Part shown: positions 33,760 through 62,074 of the stretch, one piece after another | Layout: the number at the start of each line of letters is the position of its first letter | Numbering within the stretch: position 1 is the first letter of the stretch | Source: Methylomarinovum tepidoasis | GTDB taxonomy: Bacteria > Pseudomonadota > Gammaproteobacteria > Methylococcales > Methylothermaceae | NCBI RefSeq assembly: GCF_030294985.1 | Contig: NZ_AP024718.1 | Location: 682,001 to 746,000 of the forward strand | Reading direction: 5' to 3' | DNA length: 64,000 nt | Position numbers and translations under genes: made by a program | Notes under the pieces: generated by a model | Told to the model about the DNA's origin: nothing | What the model saw: only the letters and a program-made list of their open reading frames with translations | Database searches by the model: none

Positions 33760-37267
<3,508 letters not shown>

Positions 37268-40148: not shown

Positions 40149-40225
40149 GGGTACGAGACTCCGGAAAGGGTTCGATGGAAAGGGCGCCACTTTGTACCCC
40201 AGCGGGAGAGAGATTGCAAGTTGGG

Positions 40226-40407
40226 CGTTGAATCCGCTTGGCACCCGTCCATTGGCGCTTCTGGGGACTGGAAAGGGTCTGCCGGGCAGAAATTCGTCCG
40301 TGAATTTAGGCCCGGCGCGGCCCTCCCTGGCCGCTGCAGACCCTTCCCAGCCCCCTCCGGCAGAAGTGGCGGATCGAGACCGCGGGGAATTTACGAAATT
40401 GCCAACG
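40226..40407. repeat. Multi-branched palindromic element (three-way-junction fold)
   Basis: Within the 328-base gap 40149-40476 lies an unusually self-complementary stretch. An outer stem (40263-40282 with 40336-40355, about 18 of 20 paired) encloses two hairpins. The first is GCCGGGC-AG-AAATTC (40281-40295) with GAATTT-AG-GCCCGGC (40302-40316), loop GTCCGT. The second is GCGGCC (40317-40322) with GGCCGC (40329-40334). Further pairs outside are ATCCGC 40232-40237 with GCGGAT 40369-40374, and CGTTG 40226-40230 with CAACG 40403-40407. It could be a structured RNA, an untranslated leader, or a non-autonomous mobile repeat. Confidence 0.6.
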
Positions 40408-40476
40408 GCTTCAAAGTTTTCCCACCGGCGGCGGCCTATGCTTGTTCCTGAAAGCAAGCAACCGGGAGAGAAAACC

Positions 40477-40632
40477 ATGACCACCTTCCTCAACGAAAAA
40501 CTGGAACTGAGTCTCATCGGCTTTGCCACCCTGGTGTACAGCGCCGGCTTCATGGCCATCGCCTCTGTCGGCTATCTGCTCGACGAGATCCGGCACCTGC
40601 TGACCGCACCGCCGGAACCGCAAAGGCATTGA
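40477..40632 (+). CDS. Small single-pass membrane peptide (51 residues)
   Basis: A 51-residue frame with a good ribosome site (GGGAGAG, 11 bases before the ATG) and one hydrophobic helix (LSLIGFATLVYSAGFMAIAS; about 11-35) between charged ends (MTTFLNEKLE and PPEPQRH). It ends 24 bases before a perfect terminator. The structured element lies directly upstream, so its message may begin with that fold. Function unknown. Confidence 0.6.
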   Translation: MTTFLNEKLELSLIGFATLVYSAGFMAIASVGYLLDEIRHLLTAPPEPQRH

Positions 40633-40656
40633 CCTTCCATCCGTATCCTCTCCTTG

Positions 40657-41332: not shown

Positions 41333-42724
41333 ATGCACATCCACATCCTCGGCATCTGCGGCACTTTCATGGGCGGGCTGGCCCTGCTGGCTCGTGAATT
41401 GGGGCTGAGCGTCAGTGGTTCGGACCAGAACGTCTACCCCCCCATGAGCACCCAACTGGAGGCGGCGGGCATCCGTCTTTCGCCCTACGATCCCGCCAAC
41501 CTGCACCCCCGTCCCGATCAGGTGATCATCGGCAACGCCCTGTCGCGGGGCAACCCGGAGGTGGAAACGGTGCTGAACCGGCGCCTGCCCTACACTTCCG
41601 GCCCCCAGTGGCTGGCCGAGACGATATTGCAATCGCGACGGGTGATCGGCATCGCCGGCACCCACGGCAAGACTACCACGACCGCCATGGTGGCCTGGAT
41701 TCTGGAGGCCGCAGGTTTAGCGCCCGGTTTTCTGATCGGCGGCGTCCCCAAGAATTTCGGCCGCTCAGCCCGGCTGGGTAGCGGCGAATGGTTCGTCATC
41801 GAGGCCGACGAATACGACACCGCCTTTTTCGACAAGCGTTCCAAATTCGTCCATTACCGGCCCTGGATCGCCGTGCTCAACAACCTGGAATACGATCACG
41901 CCGACATCTTCCCCGACCTGGCGGCGATCCAGACCCAGTTCCACCACTTGGTCCGCACCGTACCCGGCCAGGGACAGCTGCTGGTCGCTTCCGGTGACGA
42001 GAATCTGGAGGCGGTGCTGGCCCGGGGCTGCTGGAGCCTGGTGGAACGCTTCGGGATTCAGGCCGGAGACTGGCAGGCGCAGCTGCAGCGCGAAGACGGC
42101 AGCCGTTTCCGGGTGAGCCGCCGGGGAGAGATGCTCGGCGAGGTCGCCTGGGAACTGAGCGGCCGCCACAACGTCGCCAACGCCCTGGGAGCTATCGCCG
42201 CCGCCGTCCACGCCGGCATTCCGGCATCCGACGCCATCGAAGCCCTGGGAAGTTTTGCCGGGGTCAAACGCCGCCTGGAACTGCGCGGCGAGGCCGCTGG
42301 CGTACGGATTTACGACGATTTCGCCCACCACCCGACAGCGATCGCCACCACCCTTGACGGATTGCGGGCCCGTATCGGTGACGAGCGGCTGGTGGCGATT
42401 CTGGAACCGCGCTCCAACACCATGCGCATGGGTGTCCACAGCGAGCGCTTGGGACCGTCTTTGGCCGCGGCCGACGTGGTCTATCTCTACAGGCCACCCG
42501 ACCTGGGCTGGGATCCCCGCCTCCTGACCCGAACGCATCCGCACCTGTACTGCTTCGAAGATCTGGACGCGCTGCTGGATCGCCTCCTTGCCGACAGCCG
42601 CCACGGCGACCACTGGGTTTTCATGAGCAACGGCGGCTTCGGCAACATCCATCAACGGGCCCTGGAAGGACTGCGGAAACAGAGCGGAATGTTCCACGTG
42701 GAACATTCCCAGATCGCTACCTGA
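41333..42724 (+). CDS. mpl: UDP-N-acetylmuramate:L-alanyl-gamma-D-glutamyl-meso-diaminopimelate ligase
   Basis: Recycles murein tripeptide by joining it to UDP-MurNAc. It has 463 residues of the Mur ligase family: N-terminal HILGICGTFMGGLALLAREL, ATP loop GIAGTHGKTTTTAMVAWIL, EADEYDTAFFDKRSKFVHY with the Lys modified in the family, and C-terminal YDDFAHHPTAI. Its last codons contain a parS site, encoding MFHVEH as in recF. It ends at a bidirectional terminator. Confidence 0.96.
   Translation: MHIHILGICGTFMGGLALLARELGLSVSGSDQNVYPPMSTQLEAAGIRLSPYDPANLHPRPDQVIIGNALSRGNPEVETVLNRRLPYTSGPQWLAETILQSRRVIGIAGTHGKTTTTAMVAWILEAAGLAPGFLIGGVPKNFGRSARLGSGEWFVIEADEYDTAFFDKRSKFVHYRPWIAVLNNLEYDHADIFPDLAAIQTQFHHLVRTVPGQGQLLVASGDENLEAVLARGCWSLVERFGIQAGDWQAQLQREDGSRFRVSRRGEMLGEVAWELSGRHNVANALGAIAAAVHAGIPASDAIEALGSFAGVKRRLELRGEAAGVRIYDDFAHHPTAIATTLDGLRARIGDERLVAILEPRSNTMRMGVHSERLGPSLAAADVVYLYRPPDLGWDPRLLTRTHPHLYCFEDLDALLDRLLADSRHGDHWVFMSNGGFGNIHQRALEGLRKQSGMFHVEHSQIAT
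42690..42705. promoter_or_regulatory. parS site TGTTCCACGTGGAACA (in mpl 3' end)
   Basis: Perfect palindromic 16-mer matching the ParB-binding consensus, within the coding end of mpl. First of three sites in 101 bases. Confidence 0.9.
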
Positions 42725-42728
42725 GCGA

Positions 42729-42744
42729 TGTTCCACGTGGAACA
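42729..42744. promoter_or_regulatory. parS site TGTTCCACGTGGAACA (after mpl)
   Basis: Second copy, identical to the first, 4 bases after the mpl stop. Confidence 0.9.
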
Positions 42745-42774: not shown

Positions 42775-42790
42775 TGTTCCACGTGAAACA
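42775..42790. promoter_or_regulatory. parS site TGTTCCACGTGAAACA
   Basis: Third copy, with one half of the other common form (GAAACA). It abuts and partly overlaps the terminator stem. Confidence 0.88.
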
Positions 42791-42819
42791 AAAGGGGGCG
42801 CTGAGCGCCCCCTTTTGTT
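42787..42819. terminator. Bidirectional terminator between mpl and yfdX-like gene
   Basis: Perfect 15-base-pair stem (AACAAAAGGGGGCGC / GCGCCCCCTTTTGTT) with a 3-base loop; A and T runs allow it to act in both directions. Confidence 0.9.
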
Positions 42820-61888: not shown

Positions 61889-62074
61889 GTATCCCCTGCA
61901 GCGTGCGAAACGTCCCGGGGTTACCTCTTGAGCCTAATTCCAAACCCTGGGAGCGGGTGCCTGGCGATGGTGTGCATGTCCGCCATGTGCGGGAAGCCTG
62001 ATTCGCCACCGAAGCTCCCACTTGAACCGACCGGTTCAAGAGCAAAGGGACGTTACGGCGCAGGCGGGGGATAC
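61889..62074 (+). ncRNA. ssrS: 6S RNA
   Basis: About 186 bases. The 5' and 3' ends pair (TATCCCC with GGGGGATA and further), a large internal bubble follows, and the 3' part carries the diagnostic ACTTGAACC-GACC-GGTTCAAG hairpin before GGGACGTTACGGCGCAGGCGG. 6S RNA mimics an open promoter and traps sigma-70 RNA polymerase in stationary phase. Its position before the EVE gene and rpiA matches the gammaproteobacterial neighbourhood, although ygfA (fau) and zapA are not present. The exact ends are inferred. Confidence 0.85.

Follow-up and report, generated by a model that had tools for sequence, protein, structure and literature searches.

Between apaH and the gene for a 51-residue membrane peptide in the genome of Methylomarinovum tepidoasis IN45 lies a large branched palindrome, which raises the question of whether the locus holds a structured RNA or the trace of a mobile element. 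We analyzed it within a window of 64,000 nucleotides, this being the whole stretch of DNA under study. A sequence-only reading had described an 18-of-20-pair outer stem closing over two further perfect hairpins of 13 and 6 pairs. The stem (hereafter the inner stem) was confirmed, as was the 6-pair hairpin (hairpin 2; GCGGCC/GGCCGC), but the 13-pair one (hairpin 1) consists of 7 + 6 pairs around a 2 × 2 internal loop and is not strictly perfect. In the minimum-energy fold 16 of the stem pairs are used (40263–40280 with 40338–40355), while positions 40281–40282 go to hairpin 1. The claim that such complementarity lies beyond chance also held when the fold of 40200–40430 was compared with dinucleotide shuffles, 1 of 200 being as good on the + strand (z −2.8) and none of 200 on the − strand (z −4.6). 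When the window was searched with the Rfam covariance models at gathering scores, only 6S RNA and one tRNA were found, and the palindrome had no match. The 6S RNA gene is located at 61890–62074 on the + strand (86.5 bits).

A DNA search of the M. tepidoasis genome (G000) revealed ten further copies, with 80–92% identity over 80–134 bases, plus fragments. Among 61 genomes, comprising this one, nine of the same genus and 51 from other genera, seven had matches (G000, G002, G003, G004, G007, G008 and G009), all of them from the one genus, in which they represent seven of ten genomes; the element was unmatched in G001, G005 and G006 of the same genus and in every one of the 51 genomes from other genera. 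In a collection of 84,980 species, the exact core of the element occurred in 12 stretches, each belonging to one of two Methylothermaceae MAGs; the core was unmatched in viral contigs, and a plasmid collection searched with the window copy gave no match. From the regions around many, not all, of the matches in the 61 genomes we took 64 copies; the alignment of 49 rows used below leaves out 15 of these because they were incomplete, ran into a contig end or aligned poorly. The aligned copies place the true unit at 40237 to about 40375 (Table 1), so that the extent of about 180 bases first assigned to the palindrome (40226–40407) had to be revised. In the window copy the right end is no longer recognizable over its last bases, and the target duplication is not clear.

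Table 1. Features of the palindromic element and its immediate flanks, in window coordinates
Feature	Position	Strand	Remark
Decayed MITE copy	40237–40375	+	about 139 bp, against the usual 145 bp; alignment of 64 copies; full-length mode 145 bp
Left terminal inverted repeat, degenerate	40237–40250	+	CTTGGCACCCGTCC; family form CTYAMCACCTATCA
Inner stem, left arm	40263–40282	+	GGGGACTGGAAAGGGTCTGC; 18/20 pairs with 40336–40355
Hairpin 1	40281–40316	+	7 + 6 pairs, 2 × 2 internal loop; first two bases also able to pair in the stem
Hairpin 2	40317–40334	+	6 pairs
Inner stem, right arm	40336–40355	+	
Right terminal inverted repeat, degenerate	40362–40375	+	intact form GAAGTGATAGGTGGTAAG
Putative left target-site copy	40228–40236		TTGAATCCG; placed by analogy with intact copies
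Possible remnant of right target-site copy	40377–40382		AGACCG; orthologous site in M. caldicuralii, AATCCG
apaH promoter-like motif	40191–40219	−	TTGCAA (40214–40219), 17 nt, TACAAA (40191–40196); loose-pattern match

Intact copies are about 145 bp long and have inverted ends (CTYAMCACCTATC...), both of which match one motif; in the alignment the ends read CTYAMCACCTATCA.../...TGATAGGTGGYAAG and the flanks are duplicated. Among the loci gathered for this count, 39 copies had both ends within 45–200 bp at no more than 3 mismatches, a set that includes the same insertion in sister genomes (e.g. L046/L050) and hence fewer independent events. The modal size was 145 bp (17 of 39) and the range 53–146 bp. 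Nine-base-pair target duplications were perfect in 17 of the 39 and matched at at least 7 of 9 bases in 26, a level reached in 0.2% of controls in which the flanks of different copies were paired; in the remaining 13, at most 6 of 9 bases matched, and one of them, L042, has a 10-bp duplication instead. Mean flank identity was 0.755 at length 9 and at most 0.36 for every other length between 4 and 13, and the short derivatives of 53–68 bp (L147, L211, L212) also had duplications at 8–9 of 9 bases. We then searched ten genomes for nine joined sites of G008 and G009 and aligned three of them: the G008 copy L114 has a clean empty site in G004 (L114/L296) with one target copy, the L045 site is empty in G004 with six extra bases, and the L041 site in G005 is empty but diverged. 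Because it is dispersed, with inverted ends, 9-bp duplications and a clean empty site, the element is a MITE; as in other such families, there is no room for a transposase gene between the terminal inverted repeats, and the target duplication is of fixed length. The alternative offered from the sequence alone, a non-autonomous mobile palindrome that might be dispersed, was thus borne out.

REP and REPIN sequences are palindromes of 20–40 bp that are linked to a RAYT transposase and lack a target duplication; the 145-bp unit with its 9-bp duplication does not fit this description. We compared the 11 other copies and fragments in G000 with mechanically called ORFs. Four were clear of them apart from edges (L059, L061, L063, L064) and seven were overlapped by a chosen ORF, mostly of 68–168 aa; two longer ORFs, of 570 aa at L066 and 411 aa at L067, also reach into element copies. 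Prokaryote MITEs (reviewed in PMC10969869), among them Correia, ERIC/RU-1 and MITEAba12, are likewise short and non-coding, with inverted ends, target duplication, many copies and transcripts predicted as stable stems, but they have other ends and another sequence, and the Methylomarinovum element was found in one genus only. The review calls MITEs typically AT-rich, whereas the G+C content of the window copy is 67% (window, 64%).

Of 301 Methylococcales genomes, 28 have the end motif, including 24 from outside the genus, compared with single matches in 3 genomes for a reversed-motif control. One locus, L238, spans 1,192 bp, has both ends and encodes a 352-aa DDE protein, which matches PF01609 (E 1.4e-12) and scores 142.8 bits against the NCBIfam model NF033591 (IS4), whose cut-off is 152. 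The motif DYGSRWAIEPTFSDFK, read by eye in this protein, fits Y-(2)-R-(3)-E-(6)-K, the YREK signature by which the IS4 family is defined in PMC2266710. No target duplication was found at L238. Of ten Methylococcales loci examined for a related transposase, L238 among them, eight are bounded by both ends, 1033–1192 bp apart; perfect 10-bp duplications were found at two of the eight (L319, L324) and none at the other six, and a stop lies inside the transposase match in four of the ten (L317, L320, L323, L325). Among four plasmid records, both ends and perfect 10-bp duplications were found in Methylomagnum (L269) and Methylobacterium (L270), the latter being one alphaproteobacterium with the same ends, while a second Methylomagnum plasmid copy (L268) had one end only and that of Skermanella (L271) no good end pair.

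These elements are like the IS4 family, as described in PMC2266710, in their 5′-CT start (nearest to the IS10 and IS50 subgroups), a length of about 1.2 kb, the YREK signature and 9–10 bp duplications, whereas the MITE, which has no transposase, has only the terminal bases in common with it. The intact-looking IS found here measure 1165–1193 bp and have 10-bp duplications, against 1200–1350 bp and 9 bp given there for IS10, and the subgroup is not settled. Other Methylococcales MITEs (L272–L280, L282, L239, L241) have the same ends, 9–10 bp (mostly 10-bp) duplications and a long inner palindrome but differ in interior sequence; some copies are longer, as if they carried further inserts. Interior homology with the Methylomonadaceae MITEs was considered and rejected: the only likeness was one 12-mer in common, whole or in part, which was reached by 1–26 of 200 shuffles in four elements, two others being at chance level, and the query consensus mixed variant letters.

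An autonomous element with matching ends was thus found outside the genus but not in it. At E 1e-40 the transposase was detected in 8 of 201 genomes, none within the genus, and the seven MITE-bearing genomes, two of them complete, yielded no such transposase (best match E 0.057, at noise level). Relatives of the L238 transposase with 30–44% identity occurred in the genus only in G005 and G006, both without a MITE match; around them, at no more than 3 mismatches, there were only chance-like end pairs and no target duplications, and G005 has one isolated end motif. Left-end and two-end patterns revealed no autonomous partner in the genus among the matches listed. The 30 loci examined of 93 PF01609 matches, plus 20 further end sites, yielded decayed or deleted MITEs, IS with other ends, or nothing recognizable. 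A 446-aa IS of G000 was rejected as a partner, its own ends (CACCCTATTACCCAC) being different. PF01609 transposase matches numbered 49 in M. caldicuralii (G003) and 5 in M. tepidoasis.

In the genus, then, the MITE looks orphaned. An assembly gap hiding the helper is possible in the MAGs; in the two complete genomes, loss or lateral supply of the helper is likelier than such a gap. Against a link with the candidate helper, the MITE and the IS have only their ends in common, the genus yielded no autonomous IS with these ends, and target duplications are 10 bp long in the IS relatives but 9 bp in the Methylomarinovum MITE. We infer that the MITE was mobilized by those IS or by a lost close relative.

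The setting of the window copy bears on a different reading, in which the palindrome would act as a terminator in both directions or would insulate the divergent genes, apaH and that of the peptide, from each other. Two divergent genes do flank it, and when the apaH intergenic region of nine genomes, this one included, was searched with the 49 copies, G003 had an orthologous copy that has lost most of its interior, and close to the same position there was a copy in G009 and a fragment in G004; these may represent one old insertion or several. However, in five of the nine genomes (G001, G002, G005, G006, G008) the interval from apaH to the next gene was free of the element, and a terminator scan found no T-tract terminator. 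In G008, a weak, decayed element match lies downstream of the peptide gene. The 51-residue peptide, which has no Pfam match, was seen by reading beside apaH in G003, G004, G008 and G002 and was unseen there in G009, G006, G005 and G001. On the apaH strand, a loose TTGCNN-16/18-TNNNAN pattern had a 17-nt-spaced match in all nine genomes, the M. tepidoasis one included; a stricter consensus promoter scan called no promoter at the apaH motif. The window element begins 17 bases beyond this motif, on its upstream side, and the peptide gene (40479–40634) has a possible −10 box near 40438, downstream of the element and about 60 nt away. Because the element lies upstream of both promoter-like motifs, it is probably outside the apaH mRNA, to judge from the sequence, and neither the apaH nor the peptide mRNA should contain it. 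With the stem predicted to be inside neither transcript, a terminator or insulator is extremely improbable.

The same position argues against a leader of the small membrane peptide, which the sequence-only reading had proposed along with a structured RNA. In its fullest form that proposal would have a cis-regulatory leader or small RNA, with a selected three-way fold, spread by transposition and then retained. The stronger fold of the − strand is in its favor, as is co-variation. In the 49 copies 90.7% of cells pair, 15 pairs are changed on both sides (8.8 in shuffles) and 63 cells are double-changed (17.3 in shuffles), with none of 500 shuffles as high, counts that are inflated by relatedness among the copies; further pair types are weakly raised, at 37 versus 33.7, with 20 of 500 shuffles as high. 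In 39 comparisons between nearest copies, however, the per-site difference was 0.070 in the inner stem, as fast as at unpaired sites (0.066), compared with 0.037 in hairpin 1 and 0.054 in hairpin 2. Of 86 inner-stem pairs changed between nearest copies, 69 were changed on one side only, 11 on both sides from Watson-Crick to Watson-Crick and 6 on both sides otherwise. In hairpin 1, 31 changes were one-sided and 3 were compensated (0.7 expected), and an A·C mismatch is retained in 43 of 49 copies; hairpin 2 had 25 one-sided changes and no pair altered on both sides. Compensatory changes are therefore present, in that the stem co-varies, but a slowing of the inner stem relative to unpaired sites is absent. 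The lower rate in hairpin 1 is weak evidence of some constraint on that hairpin, whether as DNA or as RNA. Considering also that Rfam gave no match and that the M. caldicuralii orthologue lacks most of the interior, the proposal of an RNA or leader is not supported; the case for a conserved RNA is weakened by the site rates, yet the stem co-variation and the slower hairpin 1 remain, and we judge it very unlikely.

Since the inner stem is not slowed but its double changes are in excess (17, against 3.6 expected if the two sides were independent), the pattern fits occasional arm-to-arm correction or founder effects. The MITE reading could accordingly be refined: inner-stem pairing may be maintained by template switching between the palindrome arms in DNA replication, to which we give an even chance. 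The excess of double-sided changes beneath a predominance of one-sided ones is consistent with this mechanism, which PMC8794818 proposes as a creator and maintainer of hairpins, but subfamily founder effects would give the same pattern, and the four G000/G003 orthologous pairs contained just one compensated change (T-A to C-G).

With its dispersion, ends, target duplication and empty site, and with the same ends present on IS4-family IS elsewhere, the window palindrome is very probably an old, decayed MITE copy that was moved in trans by an IS4-family transposase. Such a transposase (DDE, cut-and-paste) would have recognized, in trans, the terminal inverted repeats of about 14–18 bp of a non-coding element of about 145 bp, and insertion would have generated the 9-bp target duplication. 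The large inner palindrome would be the interior of the element, its pairing probably maintained through arm-to-arm exchange as the element is copied and not through selection for an RNA, and the window copy would now be near-neutral between the apaH and peptide promoters. It is well supported that this is a new family of MITEs from Methylomarinovum and its relatives, ordinary in kind, with ends common to IS4-family elements of its order; in the literature on Methylomarinovum genomes, Methylothermaceae transposable elements and Methylococcales MITEs, we found nothing evidently on this family. A bolder idea is that IS4-type MITEs across Methylococcales carry long branched palindromes independently, the folded interior helping the element, either as a hairpin aiding IS4 transposition or as an RNA protecting or regulating host transcripts, so that they survive and multiply as orphans after transposase loss; we consider this improbable. 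The analysis explains a conspicuous palindrome that might have been taken for a new RNA, and the family offers a candidate helper in the same order together with intact, truncated and empty sites. The co-variation of the stem in a DNA element whose inner stem changes at the pace of its unpaired sites calls for caution in covariation-based RNA discovery.

Elsewhere in the window are four palindromes that we take to be parS-like (TGTTCCACGTGGAACA, 0–1 mismatch), at 34781–34796, 42690–42705, 42729–42744 and 42775–42790; 0.17 would be expected at up to 3 mismatches. One is located just before an ORF that is presumably gyrB-like, and three at the end of or beyond an ORF that is presumably mpl-like. 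Beside the latter cluster, at 42787–42819, there is a perfect 16-nt inverted repeat with a 1-nt gap.
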